Assembly (NCBI GenBank): GCA_029975745.1
Contig: JARKOL010000396.1
Coordinates: 1 to 45,983, forward strand
Direction of reading: 5' to 3'
From: Myxococcota bacterium
GTDB taxonomy: Bacteria; Myxococcota_A; UBA9042; DTJE01
DNA: 45,983 nt
Below, in pieces: positions 6,244 through 42,832 of the stretch (the first letter of the stretch is position 1; each line of letters opens with the position of its first letter). Under the pieces are notes generated by a model. The model ran no database searches. It saw only the letters and a list, made by a program, of their open reading frames with translations, and was not told where the DNA came from. The position numbers and the translations under genes are program-made.

Positions 6244-7505
6244 TGCATGAACTGAAGGTGCCTGCCGTCGGCGAATCGATCACCGAGGTCCAGGTGCTGC
6301 AATGGCTGAAGGGCGAAGGAGACGCCGTCGCCGTGGACGAGCCGCTGGTCGTCCTGGAAACCGACAAGGCCACCGTCGAGGTGCCGTCGCCGGTCGCCGG
6401 CGTGCTGGCGAAGATCGGGGTGCAACCGGGCGAAACCGCGCGAATTGGCGATGTCCTGGGCCTGGTTCAGGCCGGCGCCCCCCGCCCTGCCGACCGCGCC
6501 GGGGCCTCGGACACGCCCCGGGTGATGCCCGCGGCGCGACGCGTCGCCGCCGAGCAGGGCGTGGACCCCGCCGCGGTAGTCCCCACGGGACCGGGCGGTC
6601 GCGTACTGAAAGAGGACGTGCTGCGGGCCACGACCGAACCGGCATTCCCGGGGAAGAACGCGACGGACGCGCAGGCCCATCCCCCGACCCATCCCCCGGC
6701 CCATCCCCCGGCCCATCCCCCGGCGCATCCCCCGGCGCATCCCCCGGCACCGCCCGTGACCCCGCCGCCCTCGGCGCCCGGGGCGCCGGACGTCGGGACG
6801 CCGCACCGGACCGACCAGACGGTCCCCATGACCCGGATCCGCAAGGTGATTGCCGCGCGCCTGGTCGAGGCCCAGCAGCAGGCCGCCCTGTTGACGACGT
6901 TCAACGAGATCGACATGGGCGCGTGGATGGACCTGCGGCGGCGACGCCAGGACGCGTTCATGACGCGCCATGGCGTCAAACTGGGCCTGACGTCCATCTT
7001 CGTCAAGGCGGTCGTCGAGGCGCTGCGCGAGGTGCCGCAACTGAACGCCGAGGTCCGGGGCGACGACATCGTCTACCACCGCTACTTCGACATCGGCGTG
7101 GCGGTTGGCGGCGGCCGGGGCCTGGTCGTGCCGGTCATCCGGGATGCCGACCGGCTGTCGTTCGCCGACATCGAGGGCGCGGTGGCGGACTTCGGGACCC
7201 GGGCCCGGGACAACCGGATCGACCTGGCCGAGCTGGCGGGAGGCACCTTCACGATCACGAACGGCGGCGTCTATGGGTCGCTGCTCTCGACCCCGATCGT
7301 CAACCCGCCCCAAAGCGGTGTGCTGGGGTTGCACGCCATCCAGGACCGCCCCGTGGCCCGCGACGGCCAGGTCGTGATCCGTCCCATGATGTACGTCGCG
7401 CTGACCTATGACCACCGCATCGTCGATGGCCGCGAGGCCGTCACGTTCCTGAAGCGGGTCAAGGACCTGGTGGAAGACCCCGCGCTGCTGCTGCTGGAGG
7501 CCTAG
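6240..7505 (+). CDS. sucB: Dihydrolipoyllysine succinyltransferase (E2)
   Basis: Lipoyl domain ([15 protein letters not shown]), E3-binding domain, catalytic domain ending [19 protein letters not shown] overlap with sucA. Confidence 0.96.
6675..6749 (+). repeat. 12-bp in-frame tandem repeat encoding a (A/T)HPP linker in SucB
   Basis: CCCATCCCCCGR-type units, about 6 copies, encode [23 protein letters not shown]. Confidence 0.9.
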
Positions 7506-9046: not shown

Positions 9047-11992
9047 TCAGTCGCTGGGGGGCACCGAGATCTCGCCGGTCCCCCGAGTGGACCGCGCCTC
9101 CAGGATCCGCTGGATCTCGGCCAGCAGTTCCCGGGGCGAGAACGGCTTGCCCAGCAGGCGCACCCCCGGCGGCAGGACGGTCTGGCGGTCCAGCACGTCC
9201 TTCGGGTAGCCCGACACGAACAGAATGCGCATCTCGGGGCGCTGCTCCATCAGAGCCTTGGCCAACTGAGGACCGCTCATTCCCGGCATGACCACGTCGG
9301 ACACCAGCAGATCGATGGGGCCCGCGTGCGCCAGCCCGATCCGACAGGCCTCCCGAGGGTCCGACGAGGCCAGCGTGTGGTAGCCGGCCGCCTCGATCAC
9401 GCCGGACATCAGCGAGAACAGGCTGGCGTCATCCTCGACGAACATCACGGTCGCCGGCTCGCTGCGCCGGGGCGGCGGGGGCACCGTCTCGATCTCCTGC
9501 GTCGTGTGCTCGTACACCCGGGGCAGCAGCACCTTGAACGTCGCCCCGCGCCCGACCTCGCTTTCGACGGTGATGTGCCCCCCGCTCTGGCGCACGATGC
9601 CATAGACGATCGACAATCCCAGGCCCGACCCCTGGCCTTCGCCCTTGGTCGTGAAGAAGGGCTCGAACATCCGCCGCTGCGTTTCCTCGGGGATCCCGAT
9701 GCCCGTGTCCTGGAAGGCCATCATCACATGCGGCCCGACCGAAGCGCCCACGTGGCGACGCACGTAGTCTTCGTCCAGGACGATGTTGCGCGTCCGGATC
9801 GTCAGCCGCCCTCCCCCCGCCATGGCGTCCCGGGCGTTGACCGCGATGTTCGCGATCACCTGCTCGATCTGGGACCGATCCACCCGCACGTTGCCCAGGT
9901 TGTTGGCCGCCTCGACCTCGATGCGGACGTCCTCGCCGATCATCAGGGACAGCGCGCCGGCCATGTCCTGGATCACCCGGTTCAGGTTCACCACCGCCAG
10001 ACGCCGCACCTGCTTCCTTCCGAAGGCCAGAAGCTTCCCCGTCAGGCCCGAGGCCCGCTCGGTCGCCCGCACGACCTCGTTCAGCAGCGCGATGCCGCGT
10101 TCGCCCAGCGGTTCCTGCTGGAGCAGTTCGCAATACCCGCGCACGACCGTCAATTGATTGTTGAAGTCGTGGGCGATGCCCCCGGCCAGTTGGCCGACGA
10201 CCTCCATCTTCTGGGACTGCTGGAGCTGCGCCTCCAGGGACAGCCGTTCCTGGTCCTCCTGCCGCCGCTTCGTGTCATCGACGATGGTTCCGATGACCCG
10301 AGCCGGAGCCCCATTCGAGCCACGGCCGACCATCTTGCCCCGCAGGTTGACCCAGCGCTCCTGGCCATCCCGGGCGCGCAACCGCAACGACGTCTGGAAC
10401 AGGGGCGACCGCCCCTGGGCATAGTCCTCGAAATCCCGGAGCATGGCGGCCATGTCCTCCGGATGGACCCAGTCGCGCCAGGGCATCGTCCCCGAACCGA
10501 AATCCCCCGGGCCGTACCCCAGGATCTCCATGAAACGCGGCGAGGCATCCAGCCGATCCGTGGCCACGTCGTAGTCCCAGACGCCCTCGCCCGCGCCCTC
10601 CAGCGCGAACTTCCAGCGTTCCTCGCTGTCCTGAAGCGCCCGTTCCCACCGACGAATGTCGGTGATGTCCGTGAAGGTAATCAGGATGCAACGCTCGCCG
10701 CCCAGATCGATCAGGTCGGCGTTGAGCAGGGCGATGAACGAATCCCCGGTTCGGGTCCGCACGGTGATCTCGAGGTTGCTGGCACGCCCCTCGAGCGTCA
10801 GGGCCTCCACAAGCCGTTGCCGGTTCTGGGGGTTTTCGTACAGCCCCAGTTCGATCGCGTTGCGCCCCTGGGCCTCCTCGCGAGAGAAGCCGAACTTTCG
10901 AGTCCAGGCCTGGTTGACGTCGATGTGCCGACCATCCTCCAGCCGCGAAATCGCCATCATCGTCGGACTGGACCAGAACGCGGTGGCGAACTTGTGCTCG
11001 GAGGAACGAAGCGCGTCCTCGACCCGCCGCCGTTCCCCCAGTTCCGTCGCCAGTTCCCGTGCCTGGCGCCGAGTCTGACGCACCAGCCCGATCGTGATCA
11101 GCAGGCCGATCCCCAGCAGCAGCGCGATCCCCGTCAACACCCCGGACAGGTAGCGCTCCAGGAACAGGAACAGGCGCCGAGGCGGGTCGGGCTCCATCAG
11201 CCATTTCCGTTCGATGGCCTCCATTTCGCCGCTGGCCTTCAGATGCGCCATGCCTCGGTTCAGCATCTCGAGCAGTTCCGGACGGCCCTTGGCCACCACC
11301 AGGCCATAGGAGCGCGGCAGCAGGGGCGGCCCCGAAGGCACCAGATTGTCGTGGCGGTACCTGTCGAACGGCTGCCGGGCGGGGATCCGGGTGATCAGAC
11401 CGACATCGCCCCGGCCCCGCGCCAGTTCCGCCAGGACCATGGGTTCGCTTTCCACGCCGATGACCGCGGCGGCGCGCCCCCACTCCTCCAGGAACTCCTG
11501 GGTGTAGGCCTTGTCCTGGACCAGGATCCGCAGCCCCGCCAGGTCGTCCAGCGAACGGATCTCGCGTTCGTCCCGGCGGACCCAGGCCTGGTCCCACACG
11601 ATGGCGTAGGGCTCGACGAAATCCACCCGACGCGCGCGGCTTTCCGAGTGGTACATATCGGAGACGTCAAGGGTGCCATCGACCTCGAGTCCCTGACGCA
11701 TTGCGGCCCAGGGCCCCAGTCGGAACCGGACCTGGAACCCCATCTCGCGCCCCAGCGCGCGCATCAGGTCGATGTTCAGGCCGTGGGCGTCGCCGGACTC
11801 GTCCAGCCACTCGAAGGGGTAGAAGTCGTGGTCGCTGCCGAATACCACGACGGGCTCGTCGCCGACCGCGGTGCCCGGCCCGGCGTCGTCCGCGCGGGAC
11901 TCGGGCAACAGGCACGTCGCGACCACAAGGACCAGTCCGGCCGCGAATTTCGCCAGATTGGGCAGTCCGAACATCGGCCAACCCCGCCGCAA
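9047..11992 (-). CDS. Hybrid sensor histidine kinase: SBP_bac_3-like periplasmic domain, TM, PAS, PAS, HisKA/HATPase, C-terminal REC
   Basis: Signal peptide; [21 protein letters not shown] solute-binding start; [22 protein letters not shown]-box; [34 protein letters not shown]...[13 protein letters not shown] receiver. Confidence 0.93.
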
Positions 11993-30058: not shown

Positions 30059-30739
30059 TCAGTGCGCCACGGATGCCGCCCCGATCTCCACCGGAAGCCC
30101 GGCGTCCCTCCACTCCGGGTAGCCGTCTGCCAGACGGACGGCCCGAAACCCTTTCGTCCGCAACAGCCGGACCGCCTCGGCGGCCAGGACGCAATACGGC
30201 CCCCGGCAATACGCAACCACCTCGCGCTCCAGCGGAATCTCGGACAGGTGCTGCTCCAGGGCCGCGAGGGGGACCGAGAGCGCCCCCGCGATGTGCCCGG
30301 CTTCGAACTCCTCGGGGGGACGGACGTCCAGCACGACCAGGTGGCCGGTGCGGGCGCGATCCAGCAGGACATCGCGGCGTACCGGCTCCAGGCCGTCGGT
30401 TCCCTGGAAGTAGTCCCGGACCAGCCGATCCACCTCGGCCAGACGCTGCTCGGCCAGGGTGCGCAGCGTCCGGTAGCCCGCCAGCACCATCGGGTCCCCG
30501 AGGCGGTAGAAGACCTGGAGCCCGTCCTTCCGGTGCGCCACGAGGCCCGCAGCCCTGAGCACTTTGAGGTGCCGCCAGGTGTTGGCAACGGACAGCCCGG
30601 TCTCGCGAGCCAGTGTCTCCACGTTCCTCTCGCCCTGAGCCAACACGTCGATGATCTCGATCCGCTTCGGGCTGCCGAACGCGCTGCCGACGCGGGCGAA
30701 CTGCTCGAAGAGAGCATCCTTGAAGTCACGTCCCTTCAC
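30059..30739 (-). CDS. ArsR-type HTH regulator fused to a rhodanese domain
   Basis: ArsR wHTH (LARETGLSVANTWRHLKVLRAAGLV) + rhodanese VVAYCRGPYCVLAAEAVRLLR. Confidence 0.93.
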   Translation of the reverse strand: MKGRDFKDALFEQFARVGSAFGSPKRIEIIDVLAQGERNVETLARETGLSVANTWRHLKVLRAAGLVAHRKDGLQVFYRLGDPMVLAGYRTLRTLAEQRLAEVDRLVRDYFQGTDGLEPVRRDVLLDRARTGHLVVLDVRPPEEFEAGHIAGALSVPLAALEQHLSEIPLEREVVAYCRGPYCVLAAEAVRLLRTKGFRAVRLADGYPEWRDAGLPVEIGAASVAH

Positions 30740-30860
30740 TTCATCACCTTTTCGAGTGATTGATCAAAGTTTTGAGCAGCCAGGGACCTGAGTCAATCAA
30801 GCTCAGAGATAGCCGTGGATATCCGGTTGGTTACCAATACAGTGATCGGGCACAATCAGT

Positions 30861-31304
30861 TCAGATGCGAAGCAGCGCGAAGACCCGTCGCTGCGCCCGC
30901 CAGTCCTCGTGGCGGACGACGGCCCGAAGCGACCGCTCGGTGACCGGGCTTCCGGCCTCCAGGAACAGCACCTCCTCCTGGATGTCGGGGGCCAGGAGCA
31001 ACAGGTCCATCACCTGGCTGACGCGGGCGCGGGTCCAGTGTAGTCGGCGGGCGACCTCGGCGCGGTCGACGATACGGCCGGCGTCGATCAGGCGCTGGAC
31101 GTGGTGCGCGAGAGCGAGCATGGCGGCTACGTTGGCAGGGCGCTTGCCGGTCCACGGGCCGAGGGCTGCAGGCCGCTCGGCCGGTTCCGGGACAGGCCCG
31201 GGCGCGAGGTCGTAGCGCCGCTCCCGCCGGACCCGGTGGAAACTGCCCCGGAAGACCACGGTCCCGCCCGGACCGCGCCCGTCGCCGTTCGGCTCGATCG
31301 TCAT
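30861..31304 (-). CDS. HTH protein associated with the recombinase
   Basis: IDAGRIVDRAEVARRLHWTRARVSQVMDLLLL helix-turn-helix; ATGA overlap with the recombinase stop. Confidence 0.75.
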   Translation of the reverse strand: MTIEPNGDGRGPGGTVVFRGSFHRVRRERRYDLAPGPVPEPAERPAALGPWTGKRPANVAAMLALAHHVQRLIDAGRIVDRAEVARRLHWTRARVSQVMDLLLLAPDIQEEVLFLEAGSPVTERSLRAVVRHEDWRAQRRVFALLRI

Positions 31305-32887
31305 CCCGCCACCCCCGCGAAGGCGCCCTGCCGACCCCCGCCGTTCCCGGCTAGCGATACGAGGTGCGCCTCGATCGTCCCGCTCGCCTCGTCCACCTCG
31401 ACGTGGTCCACAACGGCCCGGACGAGGCGGACACGGTTCTCCGGCGTCATCGCCTGCCACAAGTTCCCGAAGTCCCGCAGGGCCGCCGCGATCCAGTCTG
31501 CCTCAACCCTGGCGGCGGCCAGTGCGGCGAGCCGCGCGTCGATGGTCGCGAGGCGCTGCTCCCGGGTCGCCTGCTCGTCCACCAGCCCCTCGATCTGCTG
31601 CTCGATCGCCGCACGGGATACGGCGTTCCGGGTCCGCTGCAGGGACCGCGCGAGGCGAGCCTTCTCCGCGGCGACGCCCGCGATGCGGGCCGGAAGGCCC
31701 CGGCGCTCGACATCGAGGTCCTCGCGCTCCCGGTCCATTTTCGCGTGGATCGCCCGGACCACGTCCGCGGCCAGGGCCTTGCCCGCGGGGCCGGTGGTCG
31801 CCTCGCGGATCCGGTCGACCACGAAGGCCTCCAGTGCCTCGGCCGGCAGGGCCCGGGCAGGACAGGCGCCGCGCCCCTGCTTTTTCCGCGAAACGCATTC
31901 GTAATACCGATACTGCTTCCCGTGCGCCCGGGCCGTTGCCGGGGTCAGCGCAGCCCCGCACGAGGCGCAGCGCAACAGTCCCGTCAGCAGGAAGGTCGGT
32001 GTCCGGCGCCGGGCCTCGGGCCTGTCGGCGTCGTGGCGGGCGCCCAGGAGGGCCTGCACCCGCTCCCACGTCTCCCGCGGCACCAGGGGCTCGTGCTCGG
32101 CCTCGTGCAACTCGCCGCCAGAGGCGATCAGCCCGGCGTACAACGGGCACTTCAGGATGTGGAGCACGTGGTCCGTGCGCCAGCCCTTGCGTCGGGCCGT
32201 CTGCGGCCGGGGCGACCAGCCCTTTTCCGTCAGCGCCCGAATGACCCCCAGGATCGACCGCGTCGCCAGATACGCGTCGAACGCCTCCCGCACGACCACG
32301 GCCTCGACCTTGTTGACGACCAGCTTCTTGTCGCGCACTCCGTAGCCGTATGGGATCCGCCCCCCCGTCCACTTCCCCCGGCGGCGCGACGCGGCGATCT
32401 TGTCCCGCGTCCGTTCCACGATCATCTCGCGCTCGAACTCCGCGAAGCTCATGAGCATGTTCAGGGTCAGGCGACCCATCGCGTTCGCGGTGGAGAAGTT
32501 CTGGGTGACCGACACGAACGCCACGCCGTGCCGGTTGAACCGATCCATCACGGCGGCGAAGTCCAGCAGGGACCGCGACAGCCGATCGACCTTGTAGACG
32601 ACCACGATGTCGATCCGTCCCGCCTCGATGTCCGCCAGCAGGCGCTGGAAGGCCGGGCGCTCGGTGTTCGCACCGGTGTAGCCCGGGTCGATGTAGGCGT
32701 CCGGCAGCGCGCGCCACCCCAGGTGGGCCTGCGATTGGATGTAGCCCAGGCACGCATCGCGCTGGGCATCGAGGCTGTTGAACTCCTGCTCCAGACCAGC
32801 CGAGGTGCTCTTCCTGGTGTAGATGGCCGCCCTGACGACGGCCACCGGAGGGTCCCGCGTCAACGTTGTGGACCGATATGCTGCCAT
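31301..32887 (-). CDS. Large serine recombinase (resolvase + recombinase + zinc-ribbon + coiled coil)
   Basis: AAIYTRKSTSAGLEQEFNSLDAQRDAC, VVYKVDRLSRSLLDFA, CASCGAALTPATARAHGKQYRYYECVSRKKQGRGAC. Confidence 0.95.
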   Translation of the reverse strand: MAAYRSTTLTRDPPVAVVRAAIYTRKSTSAGLEQEFNSLDAQRDACLGYIQSQAHLGWRALPDAYIDPGYTGANTERPAFQRLLADIEAGRIDIVVVYKVDRLSRSLLDFAAVMDRFNRHGVAFVSVTQNFSTANAMGRLTLNMLMSFAEFEREMIVERTRDKIAASRRRGKWTGGRIPYGYGVRDKKLVVNKVEAVVVREAFDAYLATRSILGVIRALTEKGWSPRPQTARRKGWRTDHVLHILKCPLYAGLIASGGELHEAEHEPLVPRETWERVQALLGARHDADRPEARRRTPTFLLTGLLRCASCGAALTPATARAHGKQYRYYECVSRKKQGRGACPARALPAEALEAFVVDRIREATTGPAGKALAADVVRAIHAKMDREREDLDVERRGLPARIAGVAAEKARLARSLQRTRNAVSRAAIEQQIEGLVDEQATREQRLATIDARLAALAAARVEADWIAAALRDFGNLWQAMTPENRVRLVRAVVDHVEVDEASGTIEAHLVSLAGNGGGRQGAFAGVAG

Positions 32888-33432
32888 CACGCCACCTTCC
32901 TGGTCGCGCCCGACCGGGTCGCGAGCCCGAAGAAGAGGAAGCCGTTCCAGCCCGCGCCCGTGATCGCCTTCGCCACCGCGGTCAGGGTCCGGTACTGCAC
33001 GCCCCGGTGTTCGAAGCCTTCGTCGAGGACCGTCACGAGGTGCTTCTCGCCCCGGTGGACCTTGCGCAGCACCGTGCCAACGGGGGGCAGGCGCGGGTCG
33101 CGCTCCGTCGTGGCGGCCGGCGCCTTCGGGAAGACCGGCTGCGCTGCCTCCCGGGCCCGCCGTGTGATGTCCGGCAGGAAGCGGCCGTCCAGGATCTGCT
33201 CGATCCGATCCCGCGCCCGCTGCGACAGCCCGCCCTCGGCCACCTCCTGGATGCGCCAGGCCAGCCGCTTTCGCAAGTACGGCCCGTTCCGGGAGGCAGT
33301 CGGCGTCCCGTACAGGACCATCCACCGTTCCCGCAACTGCTCGACCGTCATGTCCTGCAGCGCGGCGAGCTGCGCCGGGACGTCCCCGAGCGCCGCCCGT
33401 GCCGCCCCTGCCCTGCCCTGCATCGTCCTCAT
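32887..33432 (-). CDS. DUF2924 domain protein (recombinase companion)
   Basis: MTVEQLRERWMVLYGTPTASRNGPYLRKRLAWRIQE... upstream of the serine recombinase. Confidence 0.85.
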   Translation of the reverse strand: MRTMQGRAGAARAALGDVPAQLAALQDMTVEQLRERWMVLYGTPTASRNGPYLRKRLAWRIQEVAEGGLSQRARDRIEQILDGRFLPDITRRAREAAQPVFPKAPAATTERDPRLPPVGTVLRKVHRGEKHLVTVLDEGFEHRGVQYRTLTAVAKAITGAGWNGFLFFGLATRSGATRKVA

Positions 33433-33716
33433 GTCGCCCTCCCGGTGTCGCGAGTCCCGGCGGGGTCCACGCGGCCCCGCTGCGTGACCGCATCAGGGCT
33501 CGGTTCCACAGGAAGAGCAAGGGAAGAATCCGCATCACTCCAAGGGCTTGCGTCGGTCCGGTTGACGCACGCGGGGTCCGCCAGGATCCGCGCCAGCAGG
33601 GTCGTCGCCAGCACGTCCACGACGTCCTCGCGCGAGGTGTCGCTCCACGTCGCGTCCCGGACCCAGCGCGGCGGGCGCCGCGGAAGCGTGCTGCTGGTGT
33701 TCCTGCACCCTGCCAT
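33429..33716 (-). CDS. Hypothetical small protein
   Basis: Open frame between TerL and the DUF2924 gene (MAGCRNTSSTLPRRPPRWVRDATWSDTSREDVVDVLATTLLARIL...). Confidence 0.5.
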   Translation of the reverse strand: MAGCRNTSSTLPRRPPRWVRDATWSDTSREDVVDVLATTLLARILADPACVNRTDASPWSDADSSLALPVEPSPDAVTQRGRVDPAGTRDTGRAT

Positions 33717-33718
33717 GG

Positions 33719-35773
33719 TCACCACCTGTCCCGACGCGGCCCCCGTCGCGTCCACCAGTCCGACATGTCTCCCAGGTAGGAGTCCCTGGCCTTGATTTCG
33801 TCCCGCCGGGTGCGGTTCCAGGGGTCCTTCGACCGCTTCACCGGCCGCCTCGGGGGCGGCGGCGCGGGGGGAGGCGCGGCGGGTGTCGGCTCGACCGCCT
33901 CGCCGCCCGCCTCGACCGGCACGGCGTCGGGGGGCACGACCGGCATTTGCACCGGCCCGACCGGGGCCTCCAGCCGCAGCCCGCCCATAACCAGGGAATG
34001 CGCCGCCGCCAGCGCGTAAACCATCGTGTCCCACACCTCGTTGCGCCGGCCCTCGGCCACCTTCTTCCACTCGATGACCGTGTTCCCCTTGCGGTCCCGG
34101 GTCCGGACCCGCCGCTCCGACGTGAGCTGGTCCAGGAAGTCCGGCACCGACGCCAGGATCCGGTCCGGGATGTGGACGTACTTCGGACCCGGGCGTGCCA
34201 CCCGCAGGTACGCGGCCAGGTCGTCCTTGGCGGGCGTCGCGTGAACCAAGAAGAACGGGGCACGCGACCTCCCCTTCCCCGAGTGCCGCACCTTCCGATC
34301 CCAGATCGCGCCCTTGGAGTCCTCGCCCTTGATCGCGTACACGTGCCAGCGCAGCCGCGGACGGCAGTACTCCAGCACCCGCTGCGGCAGGTACCCGGAA
34401 TCCACGCAGGTCGCGGCGGCCCGCAATTCCCGGCCGTCCCGCGTTCGCCACACCCGCCGCACCACCGCGTCGTTGCGGGCCCAGGCATCCTGGTCCCGCG
34501 GGTCGCTCAGGATCACCGCGTAGTCCAGGATCCACGCCTCCCAGCCCAGGCCCCAACCGACCGTGATCGTTTCAATTCTGTTGTCCTGAACGTCCGTCGC
34601 GCACGTGATCGTCCTCACGCCCTCGGGGATCGCCTCCCCCCAGTCGGGTTCGACCCGGTCGGCCAGCTCGTGGGCGTCGATGGCCTCGCCCGGTTCCGCG
34701 AAGACCTGGGCCAGGCGGACGTTCACGAAGGACCGCATCTTGTCGATGCTGCCCGTCTTCGCGACAGCGGTCGCGGCCTCCCATTCCGCCGCGACCTCGG
34801 CCCACGACAGCCAGCCGAGCGGCGCGTACAAGGCGTTGAGGTGGTAGCTCGTGATCAGCCCCCCGCCCAGGTCCGGACGCGACGCCACCCAACGGCCCGC
34901 GGGCAGGAAGACGTTCTTGTCGGTCTCGTCCCACGCGGCCCCGCAGTGCCGGCAGACGTACCGTGCCTCATCGGGCCGACCCGGGGTCCAGACCAGCCGG
35001 TACGCCTTCGTCTCGGCATCACGCCATTCGAGCGGCTGGAACTCCCCGCACCGGGGGCACGGCACGTGGAAGTACCGCTGGTCGCCGCGCTCGAACCACG
35101 AGTGGATCTCGGAGTCGTTCTCGACGGTCGGGGTCGAGCAGATGTACGCCTTACGGGCGGCCCCGAACGTCGTCTGTCGGGCCAGGACCAGGGACACGCC
35201 CGAGCCCTCGTATCCGGGGTTCTCCCGCCAGCGGTCGCACTCATCCATCACCACGAACTTCGCCGCCATCCGGCACAGGGCCGACGCGGAATGGGCACCG
35301 ACGATCCGGAGCCTACCCCCCGGGAACCACTTCCCCAGGACCGTCTCGTTCTTCTGGCGAGAGACCGCGGCGCGGACGCGGTCCCGCAAAAGCGGACTCG
35401 AGCTGATCATCGCGTCCAGCGAGTCCTTGCTCCAGTCCCGGGCGTTCAGATCGGTATCCAGGGCGACGAGCATCCGGGCCGGGTAGTAGCCTCCCGCGAC
35501 GGCCAGGATCCAGTTCTCCGCGATCGTCGTCTTCGCGCCCGCCTGGGCCGCCGCCTCGTAGACGACGACCTGGGCCGGATCGTCCGGGTGCAGCCGATCC
35601 TGGATCTCGACCACGTACGGCGTCAGCGCCGACGAGTACGTGCCCGGCACCGACGACGCCTCGGCCGGGATCATCCGGTTCGCCTCCGCAATGGCCGTGA
35701 TCGACAGCCTCGGCCGCGGCGCGACCGCGTCCGACCCGGCCCGGCGCATCTCCCGCAGCGATTCCTCCCACAC
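33719..35773 (-). CDS. Phage terminase large subunit, GpA-like
   Basis: YEAAAQAGAKTTIAENW, VVMDECDRW, CPRCGEFQPLEW...CRHCGAAWDE zinc-type insert, CVDSGYLPQRVLEYC nuclease region. Confidence 0.92.
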   Translation of the reverse strand: MWEESLREMRRAGSDAVAPRPRLSITAIAEANRMIPAEASSVPGTYSSALTPYVVEIQDRLHPDDPAQVVVYEAAAQAGAKTTIAENWILAVAGGYYPARMLVALDTDLNARDWSKDSLDAMISSSPLLRDRVRAAVSRQKNETVLGKWFPGGRLRIVGAHSASALCRMAAKFVVMDECDRWRENPGYEGSGVSLVLARQTTFGAARKAYICSTPTVENDSEIHSWFERGDQRYFHVPCPRCGEFQPLEWRDAETKAYRLVWTPGRPDEARYVCRHCGAAWDETDKNVFLPAGRWVASRPDLGGGLITSYHLNALYAPLGWLSWAEVAAEWEAATAVAKTGSIDKMRSFVNVRLAQVFAEPGEAIDAHELADRVEPDWGEAIPEGVRTITCATDVQDNRIETITVGWGLGWEAWILDYAVILSDPRDQDAWARNDAVVRRVWRTRDGRELRAAATCVDSGYLPQRVLEYCRPRLRWHVYAIKGEDSKGAIWDRKVRHSGKGRSRAPFFLVHATPAKDDLAAYLRVARPGPKYVHIPDRILASVPDFLDQLTSERRVRTRDRKGNTVIEWKKVAEGRRNEVWDTMVYALAAAHSLVMGGLRLEAPVGPVQMPVVPPDAVPVEAGGEAVEPTPAAPPPAPPPPRRPVKRSKDPWNRTRRDEIKARDSYLGDMSDWWTRRGPRRDRW

Positions 35774-35780
35774 CCTCTCC

Positions 35781-36386
35781 TCATCCGGCAGCGTCGAATC
35801 CAGTCGCCATCTCCTTCAGGATCACCTCGACCTCGACCTGCAGCGCGGCCCGGAGCGCCGTGGCATCCTGGCCCACCAACCGGTTCGCCAGGCGCAGGGG
35901 CATCGCCTCCAGCGTGGCCCGGGCCGCTGCCAGGGTGTCCGCGTACACCTGCACTGCCTGGGCCTTGGGGATCAGTTCCCCGGTGCGCTCCCGCAGCCTC
36001 AACTGTCCCAATTTCGCTTTCACGGCCTCGGACAAGACCCGGGCCCGCAGCAGTTTCCCGGCGTCCCCCGACACGCTGCCCAGGCTGGTGTCGCCCCGCT
36101 CCTCGAATCCCCGGTCCACCGGAGGGGCCGGTCTGCGAGGGGCAGTCGCCGGCGACTCGGGCAGCGGGGCCGCCCCCGCAAACACCCGGTCCGGCTTCCC
36201 GCCCCGCAACGGATCGCGGCCTCCGTTGACCCGGGCCACGGTCGCCGCCTGGTCGAGCGAACCGTCTGCCCGGCTCACCAGGAAGCCCTGGGCCCGCCAG
36301 CGCCGCACGGTCCGCTCGTTCACGCCGAGCACCTGGGCAGCCCAGGCGTCGCTAAACGTCCGGCCATCTCGCGGTTTCCCGGCCAT
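35781..36386 (-). CDS. Terminase small subunit, Nu1-like (HTH N-terminus)
   Basis: WAAQVLGVNERTVRRWRAQGFLV HTH; ARVLSEAVKAKLGQLRLRERTGELIPKAQAVQVYADTLAAARATLEAMPLRLANRL; directly upstream of TerL. Confidence 0.8.
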   Translation of the reverse strand: MAGKPRDGRTFSDAWAAQVLGVNERTVRRWRAQGFLVSRADGSLDQAATVARVNGGRDPLRGGKPDRVFAGAAPLPESPATAPRRPAPPVDRGFEERGDTSLGSVSGDAGKLLRARVLSEAVKAKLGQLRLRERTGELIPKAQAVQVYADTLAAARATLEAMPLRLANRLVGQDATALRAALQVEVEVILKEMATGFDAAG

Positions 36387-36390
36387 CCCC

Positions 36391-36606
36391 CTACCCTCGC
36401 TTCGCCCCGATGCGCTGCTGGACGCAGAGCCACACCGCGTCCTCCAGGACGGCGTCGGCCAGGTCCGTGCTCGACTGGCCCAGCCGCCTCCCCTGCACCA
36501 CCCGGCACAGCCGGTCCCTGACCCCGTCGCAGACCGCCCGGATCTCGTTCACGAGCCGGTCGCCCTCGTCCCCACGCACCGTTTTCGGCCCCTTCCTCGT
36601 TTTCAT
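36391..36606 (-). CDS. Hypothetical small protein upstream of terS
   Basis: MKTRKGPKTVRGDEGDRLVNEIRAVCDGVRDRLCRVVQ...; GGAGGTAGC RBS upstream on the minus strand. Confidence 0.6.
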   Translation of the reverse strand: MKTRKGPKTVRGDEGDRLVNEIRAVCDGVRDRLCRVVQGRRLGQSSTDLADAVLEDAVWLCVQQRIGAKRG

Positions 36607-36643
36607 CTCGCTACCTCCTTTCCGGGCATCCATCCCGGACGTT

Positions 36644-36679
36644 GATCCCGGGCATTCCGGGCATCCCGGACATCCCGGG
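36644..36679. repeat. 9-bp tandem repeat (about 4 units of SATYCCGGR) in the intergenic region upstream of the terminase genes
   Basis: GATCCCGGG-CATTCCGGG-CATCCCGGA-CATCCCGGG. Confidence 0.8.
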
Positions 36680-36787
36680 CGCAATAAATCAGGGTCCCCT
36701 GCTAGCGACTGCGGGCCGCGCGCCGTACCGGCGGCCGGCATCCCCCTCAGGAGGAACCATGCCGGCGGGGGGTACCGGTCCCCCGCC

Positions 36788-37291
36788 TCACCGCCGCCTC
36801 TCCCGCAAGGGATTCAGCACGGTCGGAAGCCACCGAGGCGACGCGTACCCGTTCACCGGAACCCGGCGCGCCCACGGCAGCGTCGGGATCTCCCCATCGA
36901 CCATGTAGACCAGCGGGATGCTTGCCCTGACCTCGATCAGCCCCGCTTCGTTGAGCGCCTTCACCGCGTCGATCAAGCCCTGCGAGACCTCGTTCCAGAG
37001 CAGGACGTTCCGGCCTGCGAAGAGGGCACGCTCGCCTCTCGCCCCGTCGATGTGCCGGCACAGTTCCACCCACGACGTGCCCGGACACCTGCGCACCAGG
37101 TCGAGCACGGCGCTCGCCATCGGGCTCAGTCCGGGCGGCACGCCGTCGGTCGTTCGCGGACTCGGACCAGGCTGGGCCGTGTTCCCGGAAGCCGCCCGCA
37201 CCGCCAGCATCCGTCTCGCCTTGTCCGGATCGGGTTCGTTCAGGGCCGCCGCGGCCCTCATGGCTATCGTTCTTCCGGTCGCATCGCTCAT
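36788..37291 (-). CDS. Hypothetical protein, possible winged-helix
   Basis: MSDATGRTIAMRAAAALNEPDPDKARRMLAVRAASGN...VLDLVRRCPGTSWVELCRHI... Confidence 0.65.
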   Translation of the reverse strand: MSDATGRTIAMRAAAALNEPDPDKARRMLAVRAASGNTAQPGPSPRTTDGVPPGLSPMASAVLDLVRRCPGTSWVELCRHIDGARGERALFAGRNVLLWNEVSQGLIDAVKALNEAGLIEVRASIPLVYMVDGEIPTLPWARRVPVNGYASPRWLPTVLNPLRERRR

Positions 37292-37348
37292 CGAACCACC
37301 TCCCTGCCCGAATCACCGGGCAACCGATTCCCCTGCGATCCCGGTTCC

Positions 37349-37644
37349 GTAGCACCTTGTAGCACCTCTGTGGCACTATCTTCTTCAATGATTTCGGTCG
37401 TGTAGCACCGTAGCACCTGTAGCACCCGGTTCCTCTCACGTGTGCGCGAGAGCACCCGTTTCCCCGGCCTTCCCTGGATCGAGAGAGATCCGTCCGTCAT
37501 TGCGTGCCTGTGGATCGCGACGGAAGTGCTACAACCACCACAAGTGCCTGTGCTCATTCGGGAAATGGCGTAGCACCCCGGTGCTACGGGCTTCACGGAA
37601 CTGCCGGTATTTCTTGACGTAACGCCGTAGCGCTTCGGTGCTAC
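37349..37644. repeat. GTAGCACC iteron-like array; candidate replication origin
   Basis: GTAGCACC at 37349, 37359, 37402, 37410, 37419, 37570; variant GTGGCACT at 37370; inverted GTGCTAC at 37526, GGTGCTAC at 37580 and 37637. Confidence 0.8.
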
Positions 37645-37670
37645 ACTCCCGCTACGATTTCCCATATCCC

Positions 37671-40600
37671 TCACGGCATCACCTCGTCGTCGGACTCCAG
37701 GCAGAAGACCGTCATCTTCCTGGGCTGTCGCGTCCCGGCCCCGCTTCCCGAAAGGTCGCAGCGGGCGTTGACGCTGTTCTCGACGAACCGGTCGCAGTCC
37801 TTGGCGACCGCCGTGAACCCGCTCGCCTCCATCCCCCCGAACTCCCGCGAGCCCCGCAGGAGCACCGAGCGCACGACGGTCTCGGGGTGGACCCACAGGA
37901 GCAGGTCCGGCCCGCGGCGCTGGACGAACACCCCGAGCCACGGGAATTCCAGGCGCCGCGACCAGTTGCCCTTCTCGACGTACGCATCGACCTGGGTAGC
38001 GAGCGTCGTCGATTCGCGCGTCGTGTGCCCCATCGAGGTCTCGACCGGCATCTCGAACGGCGTGTGGAGCAGCGCGTCGAGGAGGCGGTTTCCCTTGCGG
38101 TCGGCCTTGATGGAGCGGAAGTCGCCCGCCTTCGCCTCGGCGATGCGGCCGTGCATCTCGCGCCAGTCGAGCCCGAGCACCTTCGCGACCGCGAGGCAAG
38201 GCCAGACGTTCGACATCCAGCGGTCGTCGATGAGGCCCCGGCCGGGCAGGGTCAGGTCGTGCTGGATGTCCATGTAGGCCGCCCGCAGATCCTCGACCCG
38301 ATCGAGCAGGCCGAACACGATCGAACGGCGCAGTTCGTCGAGGTCCACACCGTTCGCCGCGATCCACCGAGGGACCGTGATCTCGGGCCCCTCCATCTTG
38401 CGCATGTGCCGGAGCTCGATCCGGAACCACCGATTCCGGTCTGCGTCCTTGGACCCGATCGGCTCGATGGACGCCGCGATGCACGCAACGGAAAGCGTGT
38501 CCTCCCGGGCGCCCTGGTCCTGGGTGCCGCGAAGGCGGGCCGCCGAACCGGTCGATGCCGTGCGCAGCATCCGCAGGATGCCGTCCATGCGTCCCTGGTG
38601 CCGGTCCTCGGACGGTTCGAACTCGTCCAGGAGGACGGTGCGGCTGCTGCCGGAAAACGCCCCGACGATCCCCGCGCTGGACGGGTCCGGGTTGTAGTAG
38701 CTTGTCGGCAGCAGGCCCAGCGGCAATCGCTTGTCCTTTCCGGCGAACCCCCCCTGCACCAGCAACGACTTGCCGGACTCGGTCTCCGCGTTGATGTGGA
38801 GGAGTTGCTTCGTGGGAAAGACCTGGGACCACGTCAGCGCGAACGGCAGCGTGGCCACGATGAACGGATCCACGCCGCTCTCGTGGTCCCGGAACTGCCA
38901 CCCGGTCGCGATGATCTGGAAGACGATGTCGAACGCCTCTTTCGCGGTGTAGCACAGCGGCAGGTTCAGGCGATCGGGCGTCCATTCCGGCGGCGCCCAG
39001 CCGTGGACGCGCTGCTTCGAAGTCAGGAGGTATCGATCGTCGATGATCGGGCTGTCCGCCTTGGCCCAGCGGCCATCGCGGTGGACCAGGCGCATCCTGG
39101 TATCCACCAGGGCAACGACCGGGCGGTCCCGCGTGCCCAGCGAGTGCAAGCCGTCGGCGATCTCCTGCAGATCCCATCGGGGTCGCAGGTCGGCGGCCAC
39201 GCGGCAGAGCGCACGGAGCATGGCCTGCGGGATCTGGCGGTCCTCGAGGGACGGCGCCCTCGTCCTCGCCCACTCCTCGACGTCCCCGAGTTCGGGGGCG
39301 AGGGCCGAGATGACCAGGCGGGGGGAGGAGAGCGCCACCTGTACCGGGACGCCATGGCGCTGCGAGTAGAGCGTCACGACCGTGCCGTCACGGGAATTGC
39401 GTTCGAGAAACAGCGGCAGGAACGGGGCCGTGGGACCGACCAGCGAATCGGCAAGCACGCCCGAGACGCCCTCGCCGCTCGCGGCCGGCGGGTCGCCCGC
39501 GGGGGTCTGCGCGTGCAGAGCGGCCTTCACCGCGCGATCGATCGCGGGCCGCTTCAGCCAGCGCCCGCACGCGGTACAAACCCGGTCGATCATCCCGGCG
39601 CGCTCGACCTCGTCGAAGCCTGCCAGATACGGGATCACCTCTTCCTGAACACGACGTCCCTTCGCACCCGCGTCGGGCTCTGCATCGATGGCGGCGAGGA
39701 TCCAGTTCAGGAACGAGGGAGCCCCTTCGACCACGGGTGCGAGGAACTCCCTCACCCGGGTCGTCGCCGCCTCGATTTCCGCTTCGGAAGGAGTCGAACC
39801 AGGCACCAGGAACGACCGCAACAGGTCGTTGGGGTCCTTGCTGTCGCTCTGGTAGGCGGGTCGGGCTACCCGGGCCACGGACCCGAGTCTGGCCGCGAAC
39901 GCCCGCGTCGCCGCCTCCCCGGCCGGGTCCGCGTCGAGCATCACGGTCACGCGTGCCAGGCCGTGCCGGTCGAGCAGCGTCCGGGCGGCCTCGTCGTGGT
40001 TCGCGGTCGCACCGAGCAGACCCACCGCGTCCAGGCCCGCTTGCCGCAGCGTCAGCACGTCGAACTCGCCCTCGCACACGACCACGTGGTCGCACCCGTG
40101 GCCCAGGCTTTGCAATCCATACAGAGGAGGGCACGGCACACCCGCGAGCTTCCGGTGCGCCAGGCCTTTGGGAACGTCGGCCCCGATACGCCGGCCCGTC
40201 AGCGACGCGACCTGCCCGTCCTCGAACACGGGGAAGACCACGCACCCGTACAGGATGTCGTACTCCCGACCGTCCCTGGACCGCGCCAGGAAGCCGACCT
40301 CACGGAATTGCTCCAGGGTGTGGGGCTTGGAGTCGCCTTCCAGAGCAGCGTGCGACTGGCCATGCGGCCAGAAGCCCAGGTGGGCGCCGCGGATCGTGTC
40401 GTCGAGGAACCCCCGGCCCCGAACGTACGCCAGGGCATCGGCACCCTTACCCGGGTCCCACAACCACTTCTCGGCCTGGGCCGCGATGTCGCCGAGGAGC
40501 CGGGCCGTGGTCCGCCGCTTCTCCTGCGTCGCGATCCAGGCCGGCGACGGCGGCACCAGGTCGATCCCCGCCTCCGTGGCGAGCGCCTGCAGCGCGTCCA

Positions 40601-40865
40601 CGAACGTCCCGCCATGCGCGTGCCGCCATGCGTCGAACACGTCGCCGTACGCGCCGCACCCGAAGCAGAAGAAGTGACCGTCGGGGTAGAGGTGGAGCGA
40701 GGGCGTCTTTTCGCCGTGCAGGAAGCAGAGCCCGACGAAGTGGCCGGCGCAGCCGTTCGGCTTGAGTTCGGTGAGACGTCCGACCACGCTGGCCAGGGAA
40801 ACCCGGCGCCGCACCTCGGCGACCACGTCGTGCGGTTCCGTGATCCCGCCCGAGAACCTACCCAT
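37671..40865 (-). CDS. Primase-helicase: CHC2 zinc-finger + TOPRIM + C-terminal P-loop domain
   Basis: CFLHGEKTPSLHLYPDGHFFCFGCGAYGDVFD (CHC2); VVVCEGEFDVLTLRQAGLDAV and VMLDADPAGEAATRAF (TOPRIM); NAETESGKSLLVQGG (Walker A). Confidence 0.92.
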   Translation of the reverse strand: MGRFSGGITEPHDVVAEVRRRVSLASVVGRLTELKPNGCAGHFVGLCFLHGEKTPSLHLYPDGHFFCFGCGAYGDVFDAWRHAHGGTFVDALQALATEAGIDLVPPSPAWIATQEKRRTTARLLGDIAAQAEKWLWDPGKGADALAYVRGRGFLDDTIRGAHLGFWPHGQSHAALEGDSKPHTLEQFREVGFLARSRDGREYDILYGCVVFPVFEDGQVASLTGRRIGADVPKGLAHRKLAGVPCPPLYGLQSLGHGCDHVVVCEGEFDVLTLRQAGLDAVGLLGATANHDEAARTLLDRHGLARVTVMLDADPAGEAATRAFAARLGSVARVARPAYQSDSKDPNDLLRSFLVPGSTPSEAEIEAATTRVREFLAPVVEGAPSFLNWILAAIDAEPDAGAKGRRVQEEVIPYLAGFDEVERAGMIDRVCTACGRWLKRPAIDRAVKAALHAQTPAGDPPAASGEGVSGVLADSLVGPTAPFLPLFLERNSRDGTVVTLYSQRHGVPVQVALSSPRLVISALAPELGDVEEWARTRAPSLEDRQIPQAMLRALCRVAADLRPRWDLQEIADGLHSLGTRDRPVVALVDTRMRLVHRDGRWAKADSPIIDDRYLLTSKQRVHGWAPPEWTPDRLNLPLCYTAKEAFDIVFQIIATGWQFRDHESGVDPFIVATLPFALTWSQVFPTKQLLHINAETESGKSLLVQGGFAGKDKRLPLGLLPTSYYNPDPSSAGIVGAFSGSSRTVLLDEFEPSEDRHQGRMDGILRMLRTASTGSAARLRGTQDQGAREDTLSVACIAASIEPIGSKDADRNRWFRIELRHMRKMEGPEITVPRWIAANGVDLDELRRSIVFGLLDRVEDLRAAYMDIQHDLTLPGRGLIDDRWMSNVWPCLAVAKVLGLDWREMHGRIAEAKAGDFRSIKADRKGNRLLDALLHTPFEMPVETSMGHTTRESTTLATQVDAYVEKGNWSRRLEFPWLGVFVQRRGPDLLLWVHPETVVRSVLLRGSREFGGMEASGFTAVAKDCDRFVENSVNARCDLSGSGAGTRQPRKMTVFCLESDDEVMP

Positions 40866-41097
40866 CGCGTCCGCTCCCCTCGGAATCGCCGTCCGTCACC
40901 GAATGGCCACTGCCCGCCCCGTCGCCCTGCTCCCGGCACGCATCCAGGAAGGCCCGGAAGTCCGACGCGGCCACCCGGCGGTTTCGCCCGAACTTGAACG
41001 ACGGCAGGGCGCCGCACCGGATCCGCCGCCACCATGTCAGGCGGCTCTCACCCGTCAGTTCCGCGAGCTGCTTCAGGCTCAACATCGGGTCGTTCAT
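40858..41097 (-). CDS. AlpA/excisionase-like HTH protein
   Basis: LSLKQLAELTGESRLTWWRRIRCGALPSFKFGRNRRVAASDFRAFLD, MerR/AlpA-like HTH. Confidence 0.82.
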   Translation of the reverse strand: MNDPMLSLKQLAELTGESRLTWWRRIRCGALPSFKFGRNRRVAASDFRAFLDACREQGDGAGSGHSVTDGDSEGSGRDG

Positions 41098-41139
41098 GAG
41101 CGCCTCCTGCGACCGCCGGGGGAAGGCCCGCTTGCAACG

Positions 41140-41164
41140 TCAGGATATGTCCGACACATCCTGA
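41140..41164. promoter_or_regulatory. Operator-like inverted repeat upstream of the AlpA-like gene
   Basis: TCAGGATATGTC-C-GACACATCCTGA: 12-bp arms, one mismatch. Confidence 0.65.
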
Positions 41165-41317
41165 GTGCCACCGTAACCACCTGTTATTGTTAGGATAGAA
41201 TCGTTCAGGTTCCCGGCCATTTCGTCCGGGTGGGCGCAGTTCGACCGCAAGGGCGGCGTGGATCCGCTGCCATCACAAAGGATTGCGGGAGGAAGGAAAC
41301 AGTTTTCCTACGGGGGA

Positions 41318-42058
41318 TTACGTCCGGACTTTCTTCCCACGGGCCTTGCGAACGCGGTCGGCAAGTCGCTGGAAACGCTCCCGTGGTTTCCTTTCCTCAA
41401 GGAACCGCCAGGGGATCGTCAGCATCAGCAGGATCGTCATCTCGTCGTGATCGAGGTCGCGTCCGTCCTGCTCCTTCAGGTCGTCCAAGGCCCCGACCAT
41501 CAGGCGCAGCGCCTGCGCGTGGCCCGTTCGCGGACGGCCGGCGCGCCCCGTCCGCGCTGCCGCGAACTTCGGAAGCCTCAGCGTCCAGGTGGCAAGCAGC
41601 CGGATCGCTTCGCTGACCTCCTGCGGCTGGTAGTTGCGAAGGCGCTCGCCCGTTGGAGTCGTGAAATCCCGCGCCACCCGGGCCGCGGCCTGCAACGCCT
41701 CCTGCGTCTGGCGCAGTCCCTTCACCACATCGGAGGACAACTGGTCCGCCACGTTGAATCCCAGGAGCGCCTCGCGCAGCCTGTCGGACGCGAGCACCTC
41801 GCTGACCTCGGGGCTTCGACCCACCCAGAAGGGTTCATGGATCGTGCCGTCGCTGTCCATGAACCCATCCCTCAGAAGGGATTCGACGGGGTACGAATCG
41901 CCGACCGAGCCCACGGGAGGAGGCTGCCCTAGGCTCAGGCCGGTCGTTCGTTCGAACTTCCTGAACAGACGCCGCCACTCGCGAGCCAGCTCGACAAGCT
42001 CCGGCGTCGGGCGGCAGTACCGATTGATCAGGCCTTCATGCCGTGGCTCCCCATTCAT
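41318..42058 (-). CDS. Hypothetical element protein
   Basis: Long frame MNGEPRHEGLINRYCRPTPELVELAREWRRLFRKFERTTG...; low-complexity basic end. Confidence 0.65.
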   Translation of the reverse strand: MNGEPRHEGLINRYCRPTPELVELAREWRRLFRKFERTTGLSLGQPPPVGSVGDSYPVESLLRDGFMDSDGTIHEPFWVGRSPEVSEVLASDRLREALLGFNVADQLSSDVVKGLRQTQEALQAAARVARDFTTPTGERLRNYQPQEVSEAIRLLATWTLRLPKFAAARTGRAGRPRTGHAQALRLMVGALDDLKEQDGRDLDHDEMTILLMLTIPWRFLEERKPRERFQRLADRVRKARGKKVRT

Positions 42059-42277
42059 GTTCGTGCTCCCGGCTTCATCGCCGGCACCGATGCATCCGCG
42101 GTGCCCGGCTTCGGATGGTAGCACGAGCGAGCCGACCCCCGGGCCCTCATCAGGCAGGCCGTCGATTGCTCACAACCCACTGATATAAAGCGGTTATTTC
42201 CCTTGCAATGCCCCGATCACAGAGCAAACATGACCTCACGAAGCGGGGGCAACCCGCTGAATTGTAAGGAGCAACAC

Positions 42278-42610
42278 ATGGGCAACGCGATGAAGAACCT
42301 GGTCGAGACGAAGGTCGAGAAGAGCCTGGGCGGCAACGCGGTGGACCTGGTGCTCCACTGGCGCGAGGCCGGGAGCCAATGGCGCCGCATCCAGGCCGAG
42401 ACGTACCGGATCGCAGCGCGCATTGCGGAGTGCAGCGAGGACGCCGGGTGGTGCGTGGACCCCCATGCCGACTGCGGGATCCTGGGCCACGGGCTGCTCG
42501 GGACCTACATCCGCCTGGAACTGGCCAACGGAACCGAGGCCGAGGCGGCGATGGCGAAGCGGGTGGCCATACGGGTCATCGAAGAGGCCATCGCGGACAG
42601 CAACGACTGA
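42278..42610 (+). CDS. Hypothetical protein, first gene of an ORFan operon
   Basis: AAGGAG RBS; MGNAMKNLVETKVEKSLGGNAVDLVLHWREAGSQWRRIQ... Confidence 0.7.
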   Translation: MGNAMKNLVETKVEKSLGGNAVDLVLHWREAGSQWRRIQAETYRIAARIAECSEDAGWCVDPHADCGILGHGLLGTYIRLELANGTEAEAAMAKRVAIRVIEEAIADSND

Positions 42611-42622
42611 AGGGGGTTTTCG

Positions 42623-42832
42623 ATGCGCGCAACGCACGAAGTCCAGGTCTGGAACCACAAGGGGTCATGGCGGACCCGCTGGTATGCCTGCGAGGTCATC
42701 GGCCGGCATCCCGCGCCGACCTCGTTCGTGGACGGCGGCCTGGTCGAGGACTGGTACGATGTCCGCGTGCGCGACGGGTCGGTCTACGAGTGGTGCAACC
42801 CCGAGTGCATCCGGGTCCGGACGGCCCGGTGA
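42623..42832 (+). CDS. Hypothetical small protein
   Basis: GAAGGGGG RBS-like; MRATHEVQVWNHKGSWRTRWYACEVIGRHPAPTSFVDGGLVEDWYDVRVRDG... Confidence 0.65.
   Translation: MRATHEVQVWNHKGSWRTRWYACEVIGRHPAPTSFVDGGLVEDWYDVRVRDGSVYEWCNPECIRVRTAR

Follow-up and report, generated by a model that had tools for sequence, protein, structure and literature searches.

An iteron array directly 3' of a primase-helicase gene: a candidate replication origin in a satellite-like element of a Myxococcota bacterium

The mobile element and its iteron array

We analysed a stretch of 45,983 nucleotides (the window) from a Myxococcota bacterium, the genome of which is an incomplete draft. Chromosomal homology on the left side was found to extend up to 30738, homology to a second resident element begins at 30883, and on the right side DNA repeated elsewhere in the host family starts at 42170-42174; the length of the mobile element was therefore put at ~11.3 kb (Table 1). 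Two further contigs of the genome carry the stretch 42170-42810 at ~80% identity, and in both the homology sets in at one and the same base; element DNA probably ends where this stretch begins, at 42170. Further left, those of the tested ORFs that could be identified encode host metabolism. Transcription of the element runs in the order HTH_17 protein, primase-helicase, array, 167-aa protein, 116-aa protein, small terminase (TerS), large terminase (TerL), DUF2924 protein and large serine recombinase. No capsid, portal or tail genes were seen among the genes examined; a large serine recombinase together with TerS and TerL, with no capsid genes found, is an unusual combination. A 268-aa protein (41321-42124), which had no family matches and no relatives in 12 host-family genomes, is likely to be element cargo.

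The primase-helicase has a CHC2 zinc finger, a DnaG core and a Toprim domain at its N-terminus, followed C-terminally by a P-loop region (AETESGKS / LLDEFE) that was recognised by PHROGs families only and weakly matched by two phage primases. Searches with the helicase region returned no Pfam family (neither D5_N nor any other helicase domain), no PDB chain and no plasmid match, and no full-length relatives of the primase were found in viral or genome contigs. A winged helix in the C-terminus was not demonstrable, the mean pLDDT of the predicted structure (33) being too low for use.

Exact matching gave eight copies of GTAGCACC (six direct, two inverted) within 296 bp (37349-37644) and none elsewhere in the 46-kb window. 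The six direct copies described in the initial annotation were thus recovered, and the variant GTGGCACT and both near-palindromes that it listed were also present in the sequence; of its three inverted copies two are exact, while the third, GTAGCACT, carries one mismatch. The array occupies the 379-bp gap between the stop codon of the primase-helicase gene and the next minus-strand gene (36788-37291). Since the primase-helicase is encoded on the minus strand (40865 to 37671), the array lies directly 3' (downstream) of it, and the upstream position originally assigned to it was wrong. Spacings within the array are irregular and no gene was identified in it. It contains an AT-rich stretch (54% AT, compared with a window mean of 31% and a 99th percentile of 50%), and the AT-rich spacer of 35 bp that separates the doublet from the triplet is a candidate melting site.

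We compared the array with chance expectation. The expected number of GTAGCACC copies per window is 0.58, and none of 100 shuffles reached the observed number. In 200 Markov shuffles the top non-overlapping 8-mer per 296 bp had 3-5 copies, as opposed to 8 in the array. The next-best 8-mer cluster of the window was a C-rich run with 6 copies (6678-6746); this cluster (6678-6748) sits within a dihydrolipoyl acyltransferase gene and is probably a linker coding repeat.

Table 1. Features of the iteron array and of the mobile element (window positions)
Feature	Position	Strand	Remarks
Exact GTAGCACC, starts	37349, 37359, 37402, 37410, 37419, 37570	+	exact matches
Exact GTAGCACC, starts	37580, 37637	-	exact matches
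Iteron clusters as a whole (doublet, GTGGCACT, triplet)	37349-37426	+	
Iteron doublet	37349-37366	+	GTAGCACC
AT-rich spacer	37367-37401		35 bp, 57% AT (window mean 31%); between doublet and triplet
Variant GTGGCACT	37370-37377	+	read from sequence
Iteron triplet	37402-37426	+	GTAGCACC
Inverted one-mismatch iteron GTAGCACT	37525-37532	-	
Inverted iteron pair GTAGCACC-CC-GGTGCTAC	37570-37587		
Degenerate inverted pair GTAGCGCT-TC-GGTGCTAC	37627-37644		nearest to primase stop codon (26 bp)
Mobile element, approximate extent	30739-42170		~11.3-11.4 kb; ends inferred from start of chromosomal/repeated host DNA
Recombinase-terminase module	30883-36785		82% DNA identity to C167 element
Large serine recombinase	31301-32896	-	start approximate
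DUF2924 protein	32887-33432	-	
Large terminase	33719-35773	-	gpA type
Small terminase with HTH	35781-36386	-	phrog_57
116-aa protein	36391-36741	-	kept in second resident element (71% over 91 aa)
167-aa protein	36788-37291	-	phrog_7134; last gene of swapped replication module
Primase-helicase, 1064 aa	37671-40865	-	Pfam, PHROGs, NCBIfam
HTH_17 excisionase-like protein	40858-41097	-	

A second resident element and known satellites

The second element resident in the same genome (L039, on contig C167) was compared with the window. Its DUF2924 protein, recombinase, TerL and TerS are 88%, 86%, 82% and 78% identical to those of the window, and DNA identity (82%) runs from 30883 to 36785 and then ends. 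Past 36785 L039 has another primase and helicase, with a shared stretch of only ~residues 371-458 of the window protein, and its array is built of a different 8-mer, GGGTAGCA, placed within the 3' end of the helicase gene; the two iterons have a GTAGCA core in common. Because identity ends at 36785 and both the replication genes and the 8-mer differ beyond it, the array was assigned to the swapped replication module and not to the packaging module. Judged by these alignments, it appears to travel with the replication genes and not with the small terminase.

We then set the locus beside known systems. In PICIs the origin directly follows rep on its 3' side and has two sets of iterons, one on either side of an AT-rich region; when cloned, a rep-ori segment is able to replicate (PMC6092414). 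The window shares both features of the PICI/SaPI pri-rep-ori region, namely iterons immediately 3' of the gene and two sets around an AT-rich region. It also resembles these elements in having a primase fused or adjacent to an initiator helicase, an excisionase-like gene just before the primase, a small terminase downstream and a length of ~11 kb. However, PICIs have a tyrosine integrase, whereas the window element has a large serine recombinase and its own large terminase, its helicase domain falls outside Pfam families and its host is probably former-deltaproteobacterial. The whole-element PICI trait of a tyrosine integrase with an AlpA-type excisionase was not found, though an HTH_17 excisionase-like gene is present. 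We did not class the element as a PICI because of its serine recombinase.

In the P4 record (X51522) the type-1 8-mers of crr are found directly 3' of alpha, and an annotated terminase gene is absent. P4 and the window are thus alike in having 8-bp iterons in an array directly 3' of the primase-helicase gene; in addition, P4 ori and the window each have a tandem pair bordering an AT-rich gap of 35 bp, with 83% AT in P4 ori and 57% in the window. P4 differs in its iteron (GGTGAACA), in the missing terminase annotation and in having a second site (ori) 4-5 kb away. A second GTAGCACC cluster, and with it the P4-type pair of ori and crr, was not found in the window element; neither was sequence similarity between the window and P4 helicase parts, nor an alpha-type D5_N/SF3 helicase domain. 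As both the P4 helicase family and the second iteron site were not found, the element was not classed as P4-like.

In SCCmec, Cch2 uses its C-terminal domain to bind direct repeats that lie downstream of its own operon (PMC7581432). SCCmec Cch/Cch2 resembles the window system in its self-loading helicase, in iterons downstream of the operon and in large serine recombinases as movers, and a C-terminal domain that reads the repeats is proposed here for the window protein. SCCmec differs in having no terminase genes, a separate polymerase-like primase and the iteron AAGTG.

Arrays behind other primase-helicases

To place the array among other loci, we scanned 32 loci that had been picked by a D5_N or DUF927 domain alone, taking as the 3' region the last 400 bp of the helicase gene plus up to 700 bp beyond and as a cluster at least 4 copies of one 8-mer. 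Clusters were found in the 3' region of 16 of the 32 loci, compared with 1 in the preceding coding region and 2 further downstream; some of the loci are mutually related and the count therefore overstates their independence. Many of these arrays begin 6-65 bp past the stop codon, and the first site of the window lies 26 bp past it.

The locus L048, from a relative of the same class (genome G021), has recombinase and terminase genes related to those of the window and carries GCCGAACCT-type copies, a third kind of motif, directly 3' of its primase and before the terminase genes; relatives of this primase were not found in viral contigs. In L042 and L043, copies of ACCTCACC/ACCTCTCC form iteron-like arrays within the coding sequence, at the 3' end of the helicase gene (L042:6296-6431, L043:9399-9534). 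Their helicase genes are 82% identical, and most iteron copies differ coherently (ACCTCACC vs ACCTCTCC). In L040 an array of TGTTCAC copies lies 4 kb from the primase, on its 5' side. This TGTTCAC/GTGAACA array (L040:10880-11240, own genome) is nearly the P4 type-1 iteron; it has early genes of the minus strand on one side and, on the other, plus-strand genes that lead toward a small terminase, a layout resembling that of P4 ori. The small terminases of L039, L040 and L048 all belong to phrog_57.

Doublets or short arrays of GGGTAGCA were also seen in the host family (L042:7848-8148; L043:4091-4110 and 11014-11321; L329:2852-2944 and 9485-9504; further loci L330, L331, L333, L334 and L335). 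They lie near tRNA genes for Arg, Lys and Phe and where a related tyrosine integrase gene begins, and probably serve as arm-type sites of an integrase or as a second origin. We rejected them as common iterons of the host family, most being tied to tRNA genes and the tyrosine integrase; within the 3' end of the helicase gene of L039, a serine-recombinase element, the array is nonetheless built of GGGTAGCA.

Primase loci with no array, which the initial annotation had named as evidence against an origin, were encountered only among distant relatives: L045, L047, L049 and others encode ~1000-aa primases with the same DnaG-like N-terminal part, the only part shared, and have no array behind them.

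The same 8-mer was found elsewhere. In the alphaproteobacterial IMG/VR contigs L135, L142, L225, L227 and L229 an array of GTAGCACC directly follows the gene of a DUF927 helicase on its 3' side; PDB chains matched by this helicase are 8tch ('Pathogenicity island protein') and 5dgk ('Active helicase'). L135 had been found through a motif search, so the common 8-mer alone is no evidence of homology. All other GTAGCACC triplets in viral contigs were set aside as probable coding repeats; nearly all span 26 bp, which corresponds to a 9-nt period and hence probably to GGT-GCT-ACN (Gly-Ala-Thr) codons, unlike the irregularly spaced copies of the window. Both matches pursued for their non-9-nt spacing, L135 and L142, had the array directly behind a primase-helicase, but as close relatives they count as one case. 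What L135 and L142 share with the window is identical GTAGCACC iterons directly behind the helicase gene, some of them in triplets spaced 0-1 bp apart; they differ from it in the DUF927 helicase, a tyrosine integrase, portal and capsid genes and an AT-rich spacer of 25-26 bp. Profiles of the window C-terminus and of the DUF927 family of L135 did not match when compared, and the predicted structure of the L135 helicase family (mean pLDDT 39) was too low in confidence for use. Three more GTAGCACC copies occur just 3' of the integrase gene (L135:1306-1331), giving two sites, as in P4.

Within this family, the helicase cores of L228 and L229 are 76% and 74% identical to that of L135. Over the last 54 columns L229 keeps 74% identity and has kept the array, while L228 falls to 48% and has no array in 7.4 kb; the difference in divergence between core and C-terminus of L228 is significant (Fisher P = 7e-5). 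This single event points to the helicase C-terminus as the putative reader of GTAGCACC in the L135 family.

The origin reading and its alternatives

Taken together, position, architecture, the module swap with the resident element, recurrence behind unrelated primase-helicases and the joint loss of array and C-terminus support the candidate origin proposed in the initial annotation, and the true 3' position fits the PICI, SCC and P4 crr layouts better than the upstream one. From these sequence comparisons we consider it probable (roughly 0.8) that the array functions as iteron origin in a satellite-like element and that the element's own primase-helicase reads it with its C-terminus. It would serve as the replication origin of the ~11-kb element, or as a cis-required replication region like P4 crr. 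The primase-helicase would bind the GTAGCACC iterons with its C-terminal domain and assemble on the iteron clusters; the AT-rich spacer of 35 bp that parts the doublet from the triplet would be opened, the protein would load itself as helicase, and the DnaG-like domain would prime once the element is excised, so that replication would be episomal.

The strongest rival reading takes the array as a cosB- or pac-like site at which packaging starts and to which the HTH of the small terminase would bind, in the way that gpNu1 binds the R sites of lambda cosB. It could draw on the distance of ~1 kb from the array to the HTH-type small terminase gene downstream, on the near-identical small terminases of the window and L039, whose iterons share a core, and on the phrog_57 small terminases of the related L039, L040 and L048. 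We nevertheless regard it as unlikely: TerS lies in the 82%-identical module and the array in the swapped one, with GTAGCACC in one element and GGGTAGCA in the other; an array of this kind also occurs in P4, where no terminase gene is annotated; and the L135 family pairs the same GTAGCACC with an unrelated small terminase (phrog_83) ~5 kb from the array, whose loss there accompanies divergence of the helicase C-terminus. Even less probable is that the sites are operators and that the HTH_17 protein, or the initiator, acts through them to control how the terminase genes downstream are transcribed. The operon has no other sizeable gap than the one that holds the array, which is followed by the small genes and the terminase genes, and in iteron plasmids an initiator bound at its own iterons can also repress. 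However, an operator does not need as many as nine sites spread over 296 bp and grouped in two clusters with an AT-rich spacer between them, and a search with a sigma-70 consensus only gave no promoter-like site from 36700 to 38000. Control of transcription can in any case coexist with origin function.

Arm-type or accessory sites for site-specific recombination are suggested by the GGGTAGCA doublets that tyrosine-integrase elements of the host family have near tRNA genes and the integrase start, but the array sits inside the element, with over 4 kb to each of the proposed ends, and the mover of this element is a large serine recombinase, a type not known to use arm-type sites. We thus hold this reading to be very improbable. 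Least probable is a transcription terminator or structured RNA behind the primase gene. The 379-bp gap does fold better than shuffles as single-stranded DNA (z = -3.7), as expected from the inverted copies; five copies are tandem direct repeats, superfluous for a hairpin, and neither a terminator-like site nor an Rfam match was found.

The origin reading also raises a wider and tentative possibility, which we think doubtful at present: that unrelated primase-helicase initiators with different 8-mers use one origin geometry, tandem clusters behind their own gene around a ~35-bp AT-rich spacer, that the origin is swapped as a cassette with the initiator, and that the 8-mer reports the specificity of the helicase C-terminus. 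Examples of this geometry are P4 ori, the window element and several DUF927 and D5_N elements. In a first set of 17 arrays 19 of 55 long iteron gaps measured 33-39 bp (null mean 5.3, look-elsewhere P = 2e-4). The follow-up set gave weak confirmation (2 of 12 long gaps of clear arrays), for which reason the 35-bp spacer rule is kept as a hypothesis.

The arrangement is already known from phage satellites, and the window is a new example of it: a probable PICI/P4-style self-contained replicon in a lineage with little-studied satellites, carried by an element that has a serine recombinase and a terminase of its own. As the origin would lie directly behind the gene and the motif differs between elements, such loci would be ready-made initiator-origin pairs, useful for working out how a helicase C-terminus reads DNA. 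If the single geometry were true, the 8-mer behind such a gene would report the DNA specificity of its helicase C-terminus.
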